Of a stretch of 64,000 nt of DNA, positions 7,202 to 40,235 are shown piece by piece. The position numbers were made by a program, and so were the translations under genes. Origin of the DNA: a virus; the IMG/VR virus record IMGVR_UViG_3300022751_000017, positions 1-64,000 of that record, one strand, 5' to 3'. Every line of letters begins with the position of its first letter. The first letter of the stretch is position 1. The notes under the pieces were generated by a model that ran no database searches, was not told the origin of the DNA, and saw only the letters and a program-made list of their open reading frames with translations.

Positions 7202-7232
7202 AATGCGCATGTTGAGAGTCAACATGCGCATT
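7202..7232 (-). terminator. Intrinsic terminator ending the replication operon
   Basis: Perfect 14-bp stem (7202-7215 with 7219-7232) around a GAG loop, followed on the minus strand by a run of T residues (A run 7196-7203 on the plus strand). It separates the operon that starts at 15435 from the one that starts at 7135. Confidence 0.8.
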
Positions 7233-7246
7233 ATAAAAACAAGTCT

Positions 7247-7784
7247 TCAGCTAACTACACACCAATCTTCAGCCAGCATATCTGTCTGTGATGCCAGCCA
7301 ACCATTCACAATAGATCCATCAGCGGCCCTCATGCATATGTAGGCATTGAATTTTATTGTGCTCAACCCCCTGCTCTCCTGGCATTTCCTTGCTGTCACG
7401 ATTCTGGTAGTATTCCTTCACAGATGCCGGCAGACTCTTTACCTTCTCAATAACCATTGATATACTCAGGTCATCTGCAGGACGCATAAATATGAACATG
7501 TTCTTGCCGTTCCATCCTTCTCAAGCAACCATTTTACCATTTTTAAGAGCTAGTATGGCAAAGTCGAAACCAAGGCGCCCTTCAGTTATCTCAAAGTCAT
7601 CCCGAGTGCTGTATTTATCTATCCATGGGCTGTTCAGGATATCACCCACCCTAGTGAACACCTTTATGTCATCTGCAGGGTCACTACTTACATTCCCATC
7701 GGGAATAAACCAGTATCCCATCCACTCAGGCAATTTAACCTTTTTGCCAGACGCCATTTCGATAATTGCTTCTTGTAAATTCAT
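7247..7784 (-). pseudogene. Broken Tad2/DUF2829-like anti-Thoeris gene
   Basis: Read through two lesions this stretch gives one protein of about 178 residues. The first 87 residues (MNLQEAIIEMASGKKVKLPE...) form a DUF2829-like module that stops at an in-frame TGA (7521-7523), where the family normally has a basic residue. The same frame continues EGWNGKNMFIFMRPADDL and [16 protein letters not shown]. After a one-base shift in a C run (7367-7371) it ends [24 protein letters not shown]. These are the signature blocks of DUF2829 (Tad2), whose characterised members bind the Thoeris signal molecule. The gene is either decayed, read by recoding, or damaged by sequence errors. Confidence 0.75.
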
Positions 7785-8073: not shown

Positions 8074-8478
8074 TTAGTAGTGCTTATTTATCTTATCGTA
8101 TATCTTCTCTGTAAGGTAGCTTATTAAGTAAGCATAGGCCTCATCAGACACCAGCAACTTAAGTTTCATTCCTATGCGGTCCATCACAAAGGTGACGATG
8201 TGGAATATCTCATGCGCCAGGGTAGCAAAGTCACGAGCGCTACTTGGCAGATGCCGGAGCCTTATGAAAGAACCATTGGTGCTGAACATAACTGCACGAC
8301 CAATTGCAGTGGTGCTGGCATACCGGCAAAGCTCTATATCCGCAACAGAAAGGTCCAGCTTATCCAACACTGCACCCAGCTGCTCATCACTCTGCCCTAT
8401 GCTTACCATTACATCAAATGGATATACCTCTAAGGGTATTATGAAATTAAGAGATGGTGGTGTTTTCTTCTTGCTCAT
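8074..8478 (-). CDS. Putative zinc metallopeptidase (HExxH)
   Basis: 134 residues. HEIFH at residues 89-93 lies in a helix, followed by a glutamate in SDEAYAYL (E113), the layout of a minimal gluzincin: two histidines, the catalytic glutamate and a third zinc ligand. Small HExxH proteins of this size are frequent in phage genomes; targets are unknown. It overlaps the methyltransferase gene by 4 bp (ATGA), so the two are co-translated. Confidence 0.65.
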   Translation of the reverse strand: MSKKKTPPSLNFIIPLEVYPFDVMVSIGQSDEQLGAVLDKLDLSVADIELCRYASTTAIGRAVMFSTNGSFIRLRHLPSSARDFATLAHEIFHIVTFVMDRIGMKLKLLVSDEAYAYLISYLTEKIYDKINKHY

Positions 8479-10124
8479 TGGTTGATGGTTTTTATTTGCT
8501 CAAGCGCTGCGTGAACCATATCTATTCGCTTACCTATAAACTGCATGACGTGGGTTGTCATTGAGTTACCGAGCGCTGCGTATCTCTTACTGTCAGATGC
8601 GCCAGGGATATCAGTATAGTTATCAGGGAATCCCTGCAGGCGCTCACACTCCAATGGTGTAAGCCGGCGAACCAGTGTTTTGTAAATTACAGCAGGGGTT
8701 TTACTTTTGTCTAAAGTTGGGGTCACATTTCCTACCGAATCTCCTTGCTGGTGCGAATTTTGCCATCCAAATGCTAATGGAGACTCCTGAACAATAATTG
8801 GCTCGTGACCGTGTGCTTGCGCCCTCAAGGTTCCAGTTATACCGTTCTCATAAACAGACATAACACTACCGTCTTGATCATCAAGAATTATTGGTTGAGA
8901 TACCAGCAATGGTACGTGCCCATTCTTTACCAACGGGTGACACGGGTCTCCGGGTTGAGGGTTTGACCCATTAGTAGGCGATGTAACCTGAGTAGTGTCG
9001 AATATCACATGACATACTGCATGCCTGTCCACCTTAGTCAATGTAGGTGACTGTTCTACTTTTATACCCATACCATTCCCTCCGTTTTCTGGCTGACGGC
9101 CAATTGCTACAGATTGTATTCCATATGCCGGGGTAGACACAACCAAATCCGTGGCATCCTTATAATCTCGCTTCTTTAGCGCTGAGGCAGTGTCGGAGGC
9201 AGTGTAATCACCGAATCCTCTTTGTCTAAATCCAACCTCTACTTGCAATGGAACAAATAATGGCGCACCGCTATTGATATGCTGATTTTCAAGACCCATT
9301 TTATCACCATAAGCACAATTGAGCGTAGAGGCCAACTCTGCCGGCCTACTCTGCCGGCCTACTCGTTCACTATCTCCTCCAACGCTATTCTTAGAATTTC
9401 CGGGAGTGCCTTTCCTCTTCTTTCCGCCCGGCGTAAAATCCCTTCGCAAGCTGTCTTGCTCAAACAATACCGCAACAGGTGGTCTCCAGTCTTTTCCAAG
9501 ATGTCCGACAACAAAGATTCTTCTGCGTCTCTGTGGCACTCCGAAATATTGGCTATCAAGTATGCGCCATGCAATAGAGTAAAATTCACCTTCGATGGCA
9601 CCGGATTTTTCAAAGTCCTGGGCTGCGATATCCCTTCCTGTGAAGGCGGAAAGAATGCAAGCAAAGTCGCTTGATGATCCTTCTTCTTCTGATTCTTCAT
9701 CGCTTTCGTCTCCGTTTTCATCTGTTCCTGAAGTAATAACCCCCGGAACATTTTCCCAGACGAACCACTTGGGCCGTTTTTCAATAAGAATTCTGACAAA
9801 TTCAAGGGCGAGGTTACCACGCTCATCACCCAGTCCTTTTCTGAGTCCGGCAATACTGAATGACTGGCAGGGAGTTCCTCCAACGAGAAGATCGAATTGT
9901 TCATCATGATATGTTTTTAAGTCTCTTAATTTAAGCATGTCACCCAGATTAAGTACATGCGGATAATGATGCTGCAGCACTTCGCTTGGAAAGTCCAGTC
10001 GTTTGCTATAGTCATTCTCAGGGTCATACTGACTGAACCATACAGGCTTCCAACCGAGCGGATGCCATGCTACGGTCGCAGCCTCTATACCAGAGCAAAC
10101 TGATGCGTATTTTAATTTTGCCAT
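8475..10124 (-). CDS. DNA (cytosine-5-)-methyltransferase, orphan
   Basis: 549 residues from ATG 10124 (MAKLKYASVCSGIEA); an upstream in-frame ATG at 10175 would run into the next gene. Motif I is SVCSGIEAAT (8-17), the catalytic PCQ loop is GTPCQSFS (C86), the ENV motif is 124-126 and QRRRR is 198-202. The family C-terminal blocks LTPLECERLQGFPDNY and ALGNSM are present. Between QRRRR and the end lies a long variable region holding the target-recognition domain. It transfers methyl groups from SAM to cytosine C5. No restriction enzyme is adjacent, so it probably protects the phage DNA. All catalytic motifs are intact. The frame also carries an acidic insert (about residues 136-153). Confidence 0.93.
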   Translation of the reverse strand: MAKLKYASVCSGIEAATVAWHPLGWKPVWFSQYDPENDYSKRLDFPSEVLQHHYPHVLNLGDMLKLRDLKTYHDEQFDLLVGGTPCQSFSIAGLRKGLGDERGNLALEFVRILIEKRPKWFVWENVPGVITSGTDENGDESDEESEEEGSSSDFACILSAFTGRDIAAQDFEKSGAIEGEFYSIAWRILDSQYFGVPQRRRRIFVVGHLGKDWRPPVAVLFEQDSLRRDFTPGGKKRKGTPGNSKNSVGGDSERVGRQSRPAELASTLNCAYGDKMGLENQHINSGAPLFVPLQVEVGFRQRGFGDYTASDTASALKKRDYKDATDLVVSTPAYGIQSVAIGRQPENGGNGMGIKVEQSPTLTKVDRHAVCHVIFDTTQVTSPTNGSNPQPGDPCHPLVKNGHVPLLVSQPIILDDQDGSVMSVYENGITGTLRAQAHGHEPIIVQESPLAFGWQNSHQQGDSVGNVTPTLDKSKTPAVIYKTLVRRLTPLECERLQGFPDNYTDIPGASDSKRYAALGNSMTTHVMQFIGKRIDMVHAALEQIKTINQ

Positions 10125-10140
10125 AATGGTTGTGTGAAAT

Positions 10141-10371
10141 TTATTGTTTGAAAATATCCCCTTGCACCGGCGCACTCACCACCACTGCATTATCTGCCAG
10201 GAAACCTGCAGCACGCTCCGCTACTTCTTCTCTTGTATCTCCCCATATGTGAGCAGATATAACACGAGCGCCATTGTCTACTGATACTTTGCAAGTGAAA
10301 CGGCCCTTGGATGAGCGAATTGGCGTGCTGCTATGTGATAGCATATTGTTTCCTTCTTGTTGGACACTCAT
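10141..10371 (-). CDS. Small hypothetical protein
   Basis: 76 residues. A central KGRFTCKVSVDNGARVISAHIWGDTREEV block looks like a small beta-beta-alpha domain. Overlaps the upstream gene by 4 bp and lies 16 bp before the methyltransferase start. Not recognised. Confidence 0.5.
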   Translation of the reverse strand: MSVQQEGNNMLSHSSTPIRSSKGRFTCKVSVDNGARVISAHIWGDTREEVAERAAGFLADNAVVVSAPVQGDIFKQ

Positions 10372-24198: not shown

Positions 24199-24236
24199 GC
24201 AAAAGCCCATCAAGTTTGGCGACCGAGGGCTTTTGC
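24199..24236. terminator. Intrinsic terminator
   Basis: Perfect 10-bp stem GCAAAAGCCC / GGGCTTTTGC (24199-24208 with 24227-24236). It ends the small gene upstream and shields the transposase from readthrough. A TTG at 24233 that could extend the transposase frame lies inside the stem. Confidence 0.7.
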
Positions 24237-24244
24237 TAGTAAGA

Positions 24245-25228
24245 ATGACAGGCTATAAACCCATCTTCTCTGCAGCAAATGTAGAGGAAATTTTGTATTG
24301 CTACAAGATTTTCGTAATGCATTGCATCAAGTCAAATTTTGATAAAGTGATGTATGCCCTAAAAGTGGTTTTAGGCAACGATTTTCCTATTGGTGGCAAT
24401 TACCTGCGCAGGGAGCCTAAGCCTTTATTTACCGACATGGAAGTGATAGCACTTAGCCTTACTGCTGAAGCGATGAGCATAGATAGTGAGTGCTATCTGT
24501 TCGCCAAGTTACAAGCCAATTACAGCGCTGATTTTCCGCATCTCATCAGCCGGAGACAGTATAATGACCGAAGAAAGATATTGTTCGATGTGCAGGAGCA
24601 TGTACGCGCTAAGATGGCTGATACGCTCAATGATATAACGGAGGTTTATGTCATAGACAGCATGCCTTTGGAGATATGCAAGATATCCAGGATGGAGCGT
24701 AATAAAATGGGCAAGGAAGAAGAGTACAGCTGTCCTGATAAAGGGTACTGCGCATCTCAGGACAAGTGGTTCTACGGGTACAAGCTGCATGGGGTGTGTT
24801 CTCCATCCGGGGTGATGCAGACAATAGATCTTACACGCGCCTCAGTGCACGACAATAAGTATCTGTATGACGTAGCAAGTAACCTAAGTGATTGCCTTGT
24901 CGTAGGAGACAAAGGGTATATTACCAACAAGGATGATGCTAAATCGCTCTCAATAAAAGAGGCTGGCGTATGCATGGAGGTTCCTTACCGGGCCAACCAG
25001 AAGGATAAGAAACCGCAGATGTATGTCATGAAAAAAATAAGAAAAAGGATTGAGACGGTATTTTCTCAATTGTGCGATCAGTTCATGATACAGCGCAACT
25101 ACGCTAAATCATTTACAGGCTATAAGACCCGGATATTGGCTAAGGTAAGCAGCATGACCGTCCTGCAGTACCTCAATAAGTTTGTGAATAATAGGCCGGT
25201 GGGGAACTTAAAGTATGCGCTGATGTAA
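24245..25228 (+). CDS. IS982-family-like transposase (DDE)
   Basis: 327 residues from ATG 24245. The DDE triad is visible: D138 in VIDSMPLEIC, D222 in GDKGYI, and E270 in RKRIETVFSQL. The sequence YGYKLHGV, the VHDNKYL block and the C-terminal LQYLNKFVNNRPVG are typical of IS982-type transposases. It is full-length and intact. I found no terminal inverted repeats or target duplication immediately around the gene, so it may be a remnant or may act on the larger inverted-repeat island. Confidence 0.85.
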   Translation: MTGYKPIFSAANVEEILYCYKIFVMHCIKSNFDKVMYALKVVLGNDFPIGGNYLRREPKPLFTDMEVIALSLTAEAMSIDSECYLFAKLQANYSADFPHLISRRQYNDRRKILFDVQEHVRAKMADTLNDITEVYVIDSMPLEICKISRMERNKMGKEEEYSCPDKGYCASQDKWFYGYKLHGVCSPSGVMQTIDLTRASVHDNKYLYDVASNLSDCLVVGDKGYITNKDDAKSLSIKEAGVCMEVPYRANQKDKKPQMYVMKKIRKRIETVFSQLCDQFMIQRNYAKSFTGYKTRILAKVSSMTVLQYLNKFVNNRPVGNLKYALM

Positions 25229-36902: not shown

Positions 36903-38522
36903 TTATTTTTCTGGAACTTCCACTATTGCGCATTCAGTTGTTAGGAACATCCCGGCAACGGAGCTTGCATTTTCCAGGGACACACGAAGAACCTTAGCTG
37001 GATCTATAACGCCAGTGGCCAATAAGTCTGCATATTCATTTGTTTTGGCATTGTATCCAAAGTTGGGCGCCATTGATGTGCAGATATCATATTTTATAGA
37101 CGATATTTCAGATTGAGTGATGCCGGCGTTTTTTAGTATCTGTATCAAAGGTGCGGCCAATGATTCTACTATAAGATTGTATCCATGCACTTCATCTGTA
37201 GATTTTGATGAGGTATCTCCTATTGAGTTCTGAGCTTTCAGATAGGCTATGCCGCCACCAGGCACTATACCTTCTTCCAAGGCGGCCTTCGTAGCACACA
37301 GTGCGTCATCTACGCGATCCATCTTTTCTTTCACCTCTATCTCACTGAATCCACCTACATTAATGACCGCCATACCGCTAGTGAGCTTGGCCAGACGTAC
37401 CTCCATCTTAGGCCTTTCATAAGCGGTGATCTCTGTTCCATTGATGATGCCGCGGAGTTCTTCGGCTCGTTCAGATATTGCCAATTGATTGCCTCTTCCG
37501 CCTATTATAGTGGTGCTATCACGACCAACAACCACTTTTTCTGCTGACCCCAGCCATGCGTGTGTGCAGTCCTTAGGCTTCATGTTAAGGTCTTTATCTA
37601 TAACCGTTCCACCTACCTGGATGGCGATGTCCTGCAGCATTTCTTTCTGAGCCCCGCCGTATCCAGGCATACGTATAGCGCATGCTTTAATATTGCCTCG
37701 GACAGTGTTTATACTAAGGGTTGAGAGGGCTTCGCTGTCGGCATCGCTGCATATAATCAGCAATGAGCGCTTCTTGTCAGGTGTAGATCCTTTAGTGCAT
37801 ATTTCCATCACGCTTAGTATGTCAGTGAATGTACTTAGCTTATCCGGGCAAAGCATGATCAGTGGGTTGTCCAATATTGCTTCTGCTTTTGGCTTATCTG
37901 TTATGAATGCCGGGCTCAGATATCCTTTATCAATAGAAAGTCCGGATACTACTGACACAAATGTATCGGTGCTGCGGGACTCCTGTTTTTGTATCAGTCC
38001 ATCATTACCTACGCGCAGGACTGCATCAGCTATGTGTTTACCTATTTCTTCATCATTGTTCGCAGATATGGTAGCAATGCTGAGTACTTCCTGGCTGTCA
38101 TTGGCTATCTGCTTTGCCTGTAGCTTAATATTAGCTACAACATCGGCTACGGCATTGTCCATACCACGTTTTAGTTCTACTGGATTGGCGCCATTGGCAA
38201 CAAGCTTCATGCCCTCAGTAATGAGGTATTGGGTGAGCACTGTTGATGTGGTTGTACCATCACCGGCTTCGCCTGCGGTTTTACGCGCTACCGCCTTGAT
38301 CATCTGTGCTCCGCTATCCTCATAAGGATCTGATAATGTCCTGACGTTCTGCGCCACGGTAACACCATCCTTAGTTATGAATGGGTTCTGGCCACTATTT
38401 TGCTGTATGGTAACATTGCGTCCTTTAGGACCCAGTGTTACTTTTACTGCATCAGCTACCTTGTCTATGCCTGCCTTCATTTTGTTCCGGGCATCGGAAT
38501 TAAATTGCAATTGTGTGCTCAT
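36903..38522 (-). CDS. groEL: Phage chaperonin GroEL (Cpn60)
   Basis: 539 residues, close to the bacterial length of about 545. The ATP site is present: LGPKGRNV (30-37), the catalytic aspartate in GDGTTT (87-92), and EEGIVPGGG with VDDAL in the C-terminal equatorial domain. The apical domain is conserved in outline. It lacks the GGM-rich tail and ends AIVEVPEK. It should form a folding cage, most likely for capsid or tail proteins. Co-transcribed with the multi-domain GroES 27 bp upstream, and leftward between two rightward structural blocks. Confidence 0.95.
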   Translation of the reverse strand: MSTQLQFNSDARNKMKAGIDKVADAVKVTLGPKGRNVTIQQNSGQNPFITKDGVTVAQNVRTLSDPYEDSGAQMIKAVARKTAGEAGDGTTTSTVLTQYLITEGMKLVANGANPVELKRGMDNAVADVVANIKLQAKQIANDSQEVLSIATISANNDEEIGKHIADAVLRVGNDGLIQKQESRSTDTFVSVVSGLSIDKGYLSPAFITDKPKAEAILDNPLIMLCPDKLSTFTDILSVMEICTKGSTPDKKRSLLIICSDADSEALSTLSINTVRGNIKACAIRMPGYGGAQKEMLQDIAIQVGGTVIDKDLNMKPKDCTHAWLGSAEKVVVGRDSTTIIGGRGNQLAISERAEELRGIINGTEITAYERPKMEVRLAKLTSGMAVINVGGFSEIEVKEKMDRVDDALCATKAALEEGIVPGGGIAYLKAQNSIGDTSSKSTDEVHGYNLIVESLAAPLIQILKNAGITQSEISSIKYDICTSMAPNFGYNAKTNEYADLLATGVIDPAKVLRVSLENASSVAGMFLTTECAIVEVPEK

Positions 38523-38549: not shown

Positions 38550-40235
38550 TTATTCTTCAGTAAAGGTAAGCAGGTCGTTTTGGTGCATCACCAGATGCTC
38601 GACACCATCTATAGCGATCTCTGCGCCGGCCATGCGTTTAAAGTACACGACATTACCCTCTGATACTATCATAGGTATCTTATCGGTGCCTGGGCCAACT
38701 CTTATAACTCTGCCTTTTACAGGGCGCTCCTTGGCATCCTCTGGAAGTATCAGGTGTGATTCTTTCTTATCTTCTATTGGCAGGATAAGAACTTTGTCTC
38801 CGAATGGCGTGTGTATTGTGTTGCCCATGTCGTCTTTGTGTGTTTTAAGTAAAATAAAATGTTCGTGTGCTATTATGAAGTTCTCTCCCAGCAGCGTTAT
38901 TGGGTATAGTTCCTTAAATGTTGCTACTATCTTTCGGTTACCTTTAATCGGGGTGCAAATGACAGCATGATTCTTATTGACATAGGCAGCTTTCTCAAGC
39001 GCATCCGTCTTTAGTCCTTCTATGCTCGTTTCCAATGCTTGCAATTCTTCTTTCTGTGCAGGGTCTGCAGGGTTAAGCATGCGGTGCTTGTTGGATAAGC
39101 GCTGAAATGTAGCAGTGTACTTACCTGCACCTTCTTTCTTCTTTTCAGCTATTATATTCTGAAGTGCCGGCAGTGTTTTTATATCATTGAACGTATAGTC
39201 CATGTTATGCAGTTCAGACCTTGGGATTTCTTTTTTCTCAAAAAGTTCAATCTCTGGCTTAAGAAATATGTTCCTGTCAAATGGTTTGATAGTGCTCAGC
39301 TGTGGTATTGGGTTTGTGGATAGATTATTCCTGGATTCCATCATCCCGAAGATTTCTCTTCCGTCATGTGAGAAACAGTTGATCATAATGTACGCATACT
39401 TTGATTTTCCATCTTTGCCTTTTTTCTCTCGGAGCATGCGGTACTGCTGGTGCTCTACCGTGTGATGGAGTATCGCAAAGCAGCCAGGGCGAAGCTTAGG
39501 GTACATCTTGGCTGCTTCTGAACCTATGCTGACAACTTTAGCATACTGCAGGTTGTACATCATGTGTATATATGCCTCCGGGCGTATCAGGCCACTTGCC
39601 ATTTCAAACCGGCTGCGCTTCTGCTCATTGATGTCTACGCGTACTATTATTTTGTGTGGCGCAGCCTTTTCATTTACTGAGTATATATCACGCTCAAATA
39701 ATACTTCCATGATGCGGCCATCGACATTAGCTGTGGGGTACATGCCTTGTTCTGCCTTCCTGTATTCTACTGTATCCCCTACCTTAAATAAAGAGCCTGG
39801 AGGGACCGCATGTATTATTCCTTTTTGAGGGACCCCCAGCGTTTCGTCAGGAATGATGATACCGCCATCGCTCACCATTTTGCCAGATAGTGGTTCAATG
39901 AATAGCCGGTTGAATGGAGTATTATCAACCGACCATATTTCGTTCTCAAAAAGCAGGTCCAGTTCTTCTCCTGCTATCTCTATTCCGCTGTACCGCTCCT
40001 CCGGGTTATTGCGCTCGATCTTGCGATAAGATACGTGTGCACCCACCGGTATTTCTGAGCCTTCGCAGTTGGAAATAACGACACCGGTTTCGCAAACCAC
40101 ATTTGCATCTTTTGGTATTTCGATACCGTGCTGGTTTACCACTGCAGGATGTTCGTCCGGGCGCACGATAAGGCGCCTTGATATTGCTCCGCTATTGTTG
40201 ATGTAGGGGATGCTGGTTAAATTATGTGTGTGCAT
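38550..40235 (-). CDS. Multi-domain GroES-like co-chaperonin
   Basis: 561 residues instead of the usual 95-100. The C-terminus (475-561: TPFGDKVLILPI, LILPEDAKERPVKGRVIRVG, then VVYFKR and HLVMHQNDLLTF) is a canonical GroES domain. The N-terminal part holds two more recognisable barrels, 20-103 (RRLIVRP, GIEIPKD, TGVVIS, VSYRKIE, ELDLLFENEIWSV) and 109-187 (NRLFIEP, GGIIIPDE, KGIIHAV, VEYRKAE, MEVLFERDIYSV). A more divergent one follows at about 194-310, then a helical linker. It should cap the neighbouring GroEL. This fusion layout is not one I know from other GroES proteins. Confidence 0.85.
   Translation of the reverse strand: MHTHNLTSIPYINNSGAISRRLIVRPDEHPAVVNQHGIEIPKDANVVCETGVVISNCEGSEIPVGAHVSYRKIERNNPEERYSGIEIAGEELDLLFENEIWSVDNTPFNRLFIEPLSGKMVSDGGIIIPDETLGVPQKGIIHAVPPGSLFKVGDTVEYRKAEQGMYPTANVDGRIMEVLFERDIYSVNEKAAPHKIIVRVDINEQKRSRFEMASGLIRPEAYIHMMYNLQYAKVVSIGSEAAKMYPKLRPGCFAILHHTVEHQQYRMLREKKGKDGKSKYAYIMINCFSHDGREIFGMMESRNNLSTNPIPQLSTIKPFDRNIFLKPEIELFEKKEIPRSELHNMDYTFNDIKTLPALQNIIAEKKKEGAGKYTATFQRLSNKHRMLNPADPAQKEELQALETSIEGLKTDALEKAAYVNKNHAVICTPIKGNRKIVATFKELYPITLLGENFIIAHEHFILLKTHKDDMGNTIHTPFGDKVLILPIEDKKESHLILPEDAKERPVKGRVIRVGPGTDKIPMIVSEGNVVYFKRMAGAEIAIDGVEHLVMHQNDLLTFTEE

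Follow-up and report, generated by a model that had tools for sequence, protein, structure and literature searches.

By binding nucleotide alarm molecules, Tad2 proteins stop these from reaching the effectors. According to a review, Tad2 accommodates gcADPR in one pair of pockets and the cyclic dinucleotides of CBASS elsewhere, via a long insertion (PMC12043709). The founding anti-Thoeris protein, SPO1 Tad2 (gp34.65, PDB 8sme-8smg), binds gcADPR but not 3'3'-cGAMP (PMC11722364), and MoTad2, of the MoTad2/ModTad2 proteins of a Myroides prophage (PDB 8v3e, 9eib), binds His-ADPR of type II Thoeris (PMC13299392). As the members differ in ligand, the family name alone does not tell which defence was met. 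The PDB titles list HgmTad2/AcrIIA7 with 1',2'-cADPR and cGG, and SptTad2 with cGG. Uribe et al., as cited in PMC6739867, discovered acrIIA7 by functional selection.

We analysed a window comprising bases 1-64000 of the 91,186-base IMG/VR virus record IMGVR_UViG_3300022751_000017, in which an interrupted gene encodes two tandem domains of the Tad2 fold. The closest solved relative was AcrIIA7/HgmTad2 (PDB 8kbi, 8kbj, 8kbk; 9kzr), to which the second domain aligned end to end (7.2e-34; 4.1e-32 for AcrIIA7 9kzr) and with which the gene shares the long insertion and a conserved motif. The 8kbi protein is a single, intact domain of 104 residues, whereas the window gene is interrupted twice and also encodes an additional Tad2-fold domain at the N terminus; the about 49 residues ahead of the domain in 9kzr did not align to the window gene. 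SptTad2 (PDB 8wjd, with cGG; 1.3e-27) belongs to the same branch and has the KSLPxxVK insertion but, unlike the window gene, is an intact single-domain protein. MoTad2/ModTad2 is of the same family (1e-10). SPO1 Tad2 has the Pfam family, the first hairpin and the C-terminal QTDxLAEDW in common with the window gene, but its match was much weaker (4e-12) and it lacks the long insertion that separates the two conserved blocks: this stretch counts 37 residues in the window gene and 15 in SPO1 Tad2. The two-domain architecture is found in the relatives L003/L085 and L259 and in PHROG 1048, all of which, unlike the window gene, have it in one open frame.

Family and branch of the interrupted gene

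The joined protein, with X at both breaks, matched the Tad2-like profile PF11195 (formerly DUF2829) over residues 73-177 with 83.6 bits (E 1.4e-23), the curated cut-off being 25 bits. When the record itself was searched, the separate pieces, one of them with '1 TGA' inside, gave 41 and 32.5 bits and were thus both above the cut-off, and phrog_1048 was matched over the whole length (residues 1-178, 2.7e-30). The strengths of the PF11195 and PDB matches ruled out chance homology, and the conserved blocks are those of DUF2829/Tad2, as the preliminary description had stated. PADLOC and NCBIfam scans of the gene returned no relevant match. The fold was compared by proxy, using the intact relative L003: its model matched HgmTad2 structures containing cADPR, alone or together with cGG (E 3e-12), and the cGG-bound SptTad2 (E 4e-12), i.e. 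with E about 1e-12. There is no single open frame for the whole Tad2 domain, which makes this an interrupted (pseudo)gene of the PF11195 family. The gene is a member, very probably a decaying one, of the known Tad2 family and not a new kind of system.

By its sequence, the broken domain is a member of the AcrIIA7/HgmTad2-SptTad2 branch, of which it has the long insertion, and it is by homology a predicted sponge for CBASS signals. Because of this insertion, the ancestor of the domain may have countered CBASS, Thoeris or both. The domain had previously been described as a sponge for Thoeris signals, with the conclusion that the phage or its recent ancestor met Thoeris defence. Neither claim was supported as worded. 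The closest solved relatives (AcrIIA7/HgmTad2 and SptTad2) were deposited with cADPR and/or cyclic di-GMP bound, and the insertion is reported to bind CBASS dinucleotides; the conclusion on Thoeris was over-specific, since CBASS, or both defences, would fit as well. Any anti-CRISPR kinship of the window gene with AcrIIA7 would be one of homology only.

Features of the interrupted gene and of the region just after it (window coordinates)
Feature	Position	Strand	Evidence
Interrupted gene; protein of ~178 residues with two tandem Tad2-fold domains	7247..7784	-	PF11195, phrog_1048, intact two-domain relatives
Open ORF, 87 codons + stop; complete diverged N-terminal Tad2-fold domain (~residues 1-70) and start of the second domain	7521..7784	-	Reading frame, AlphaFold2/Foldseek, 62% identity to first domain of L259
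In-frame TGA, within a conserved part of the second domain, immediately ahead of EGWNGK	7521..7523	-	Frame reading, relatives
One-base frame change; the interval includes the five-G run 7367-7371 and lies in a variable loop	7357..7394	-	Frame comparison with AcrIIA7/HgmTad2 and L003
What is left of the canonical (second) Tad2 domain, with the long KSLPxSVK insertion	7250..7520	-	PF11195, PDB alignments
Intrinsic terminator directly downstream of the gene; 14-pair stem, 3-base loop, T run	7202..7232	-	Terminator scan, fold energy

The two lesions and the two domains

An ATG at 7784 (minus strand) starts the 87-codon frame, which ends at the TGA at 7523-7521; the in-frame TGA previously reported at 7521 was thus present. 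In the alignment of the relatives, the column of this TGA is occupied by one nearly invariant residue. Past the TGA, frame 0 runs through EGWNGKNMFIFMRPADDL and a further conserved block, after which the family pattern is lost and a stop follows near 7320. The pattern is picked up again in the +1 frame, which ends at 7247, so that the first two conserved blocks lie in frame 0 and the last in +1. The last codon that is clearly in frame 0 belongs to YYQNRD, ending at 7395, and the first that is clearly in +1 to IKFNAY, starting at 7357. The preliminary description had placed a one-base shift at a five-base G run. Both the shift and the run (five C on the plus strand, G on the coding strand, at 7367-7371) were found; the exact site could be narrowed only to the interval 7395-7357, where the family has a variable loop. 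The G run is a plausible, though not proven, site within it. In this record, the second domain is inactivated by the premature stop and the frame change, and a complete second domain cannot be made.

The gene had been described simply as broken. This holds for its second domain, which is interrupted twice while the relatives are intact, but a complete first Tad2-fold domain is still open. This domain, within codons 1-87 upstream of the stop, had been missed in the preliminary description, as had the terminator at 7232-7202 (fold -20.3 kcal/mol, z -6.6; the terminator scan found 1, against 1.3 expected in shuffles).

The approximately 70 residues N-terminal to the canonical domain form a diverged copy of the Tad2 fold with a KLPxWxGYW motif, on which PF11195 gave a weak, sub-threshold match of 17.9 bits. 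When the 87-aa ORF was modelled with AlphaFold2, the pLDDT was 79, and the model's top 19 PDB matches by Foldseek, among 350,542 chains, were all Tad2 structures (best probability 0.99, TM 0.60/0.67); no non-Tad2 structure among the matches was convincing. The E-values were modest (0.1 or higher), because the domain is short. The same arrangement is intact in L003/L085 of Mongoliibacter ruber (187 aa; best segment 48% identity) and in L259 (154 aa), the first domain of which is 62% identical to that of the window gene. Thus, the gene encoded two Tad2-fold domains, and the broken one is the second, canonical one. Another intact two-domain Tad2-type protein is encoded at L260:2019-2591 (+) on a 100-kb viral contig, and its second domain is devoid of much of GWNGK and of another conserved Tad2 motif.

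The first domain also occurs by itself, in 21 fetched phage loci with ORFs of 55-91 codons, where the second domain was absent within 700 bases downstream (411 in one case, in which the locus ends there). Such stand-alone KLPxWxGYW ORFs were seen in L261-L263, L268, L269, L272, L290, L311, L320, L333, L338 and others. The N-terminal half of proteins of the PHROG 1048 type, for which phages often have a separate gene, is itself a predicted Tad2-fold domain, and the stand-alone proteins may, judging from the model, be uncharacterised single-domain nucleotide binders, which suggests a second group of possible nucleotide sponges. The Staphylococcus phage SpaA1 encodes the two halves in separate ORFs that overlap.

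The possibility exists that the window gene was cut back and not killed, the 87-aa ORF being a working stand-alone protein of the N-terminal type from which only the second domain was discarded. The ORF contains the whole first domain, with a predicted fold that matched only Tad2 structures at high probability, and both the 21 single-domain loci and the separate halves of SpaA1 are consistent with such an outcome. However, the ORF ends inside the second domain and would carry an odd tail of ~17 residues, which was of low confidence in the AlphaFold2 model; we therefore regard this reading as possible but doubtful. We rejected a neat division into two functional genes like that in SpaA1, given that the first ORF stops within the second domain and the remainder is not in frame.

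Probable decay of the second domain

It is very probable that an ancestor encoded a two-domain Tad2 sponge, the second domain of which has now truly decayed through the stop and the frame change. The canonical Tad2 domain lay in one open frame in 152 of the 154 fetched relative loci, which are partly redundant, so that the figure is not a rate; in the remaining two the match was partial, covering just ~29 residues, and in one of these it lay where the locus ends. Apart from the lesions, the broken copy has kept the residues conserved in the family, suggesting from the sequence that the loss was recent.

A sequencing or assembly error would mean that the real phage has an intact gene and a working two-domain sponge. 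Such an error could account for the well-conserved residues flanking each break, which look as if under selection, and one of the candidate sites is a homopolymer run; moreover, this is a single metagenome-type record, and an exact 27-mer from the gene had no match in viral_contigs, i.e. there was no other copy. Against this, a stop of the substitution type and a frame change are unlike events, which would have had to arise independently within the same 538 bases while frames as long as 1753 codons stayed open, and a five-base run is short for homopolymer errors on common short-read platforms. Open frames of 1616 and 1753 codons elsewhere show that the record is not generally error-ridden. If lesions fell randomly over the 91,186 bases, the chance of a second in the same 538 bases would be ~0.6%; most other genes of the phage are without homologues, and small lesions in them could have gone unseen. 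That both lesions lie in the same gene, in a 91-kb record that is otherwise open, favours true decay, and we consider an error unlikely.

The conserved parts on both sides of the breaks would also agree with programmed recoding, in which stop readthrough and a ribosomal frame shift together give a regulated full-length protein. This would take two separate events in one short gene, neither of which is needed in the 152 relatives, and no known slippery motif was recognised in the gene by eye. TGA ends 13 of the 59 long non-overlapping ORFs in the record; it is thus an ordinary stop in this phage, which excludes an alternative genetic code and leaves recoding extremely unlikely.

True decay very probably came about as follows. 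The phage ancestor encoded a protein with a diverged first Tad2-fold domain and a second one of the AcrIIA7/HgmTad2-SptTad2 type. From knowledge of the family, the second domain would have been a sponge for alarm molecules made by infected cells, namely the cyclic ADP-ribose isomers of Thoeris and/or the cyclic dinucleotides of CBASS; with these signals soaked up, the suicide effectors would not be switched on. In the present record the second domain is lost to the premature stop and the frame change. The homology, the two lesions, the intact relatives and the surviving first-domain ORF are seen directly in the sequences; we infer that the loss of function was recent and that the need for the gene was relaxed in the present host, as we infer the ligands. 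Relaxed need, with no such defence in the present host, is the simplest reading of the loss.

By analogy, the sponge domain could instead have been lost by selection through a Panoptes-type guard, which would notice a sponge when the guard's own cyclic dinucleotide disappears. The diverged first domain would then have been retained alone, as a separate protein binding another ligand. Phages escape Panoptes by losing the Acb2 sponge (loss-of-function mutants), and a mild triggering is reported for SptTad2, to which the broken domain is closely related (PMC12657218). We regard this route as very unlikely here. Taken as decay, the locus plainly records a phage losing a counter-defence gene, a kind of loss rarely put on record, since broken genes go unannotated.

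The phage and its neighbouring genes

The phage probably infects Bacteroidota, judging from a Bacteroides-like IS982-type transposase and from the relatives of its terminase. The transposase gene (24233-25228, plus strand) encodes a protein about 48% identical to Bacteroides copies, and this IS982 family is uncommon in phage genomes. When relatives close to the entire phage were sought, only distant terminase relatives emerged (~25-31%; Cellulophaga phi38:1, Flavobacterium elemoE), and no DNA sequence matched closely. The L260 contig also encodes a distant terminase relative.

None of the neighbouring small genes tested had a Pfam family, the exception being a C5 cytosine DNA methylase of 566 residues (8475-10175, minus strand), in which the methylase matches clustered within the first ~270 residues, followed by a long further stretch. 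PADLOC, run on ten proteins, gave methyltransferase matches only.

Scans with the DnaB-like helicase and with a GroES-fusion protein gave no relatives, and for the latter none were found among viruses. The fusion protein (38550-40235, minus strand) has 561 residues, of which the last 85 are GroES (Cpn10, 2.5e-28) and the other ~475 are without any family match. Its gene adjoins a phage GroEL gene at 36903-38522.
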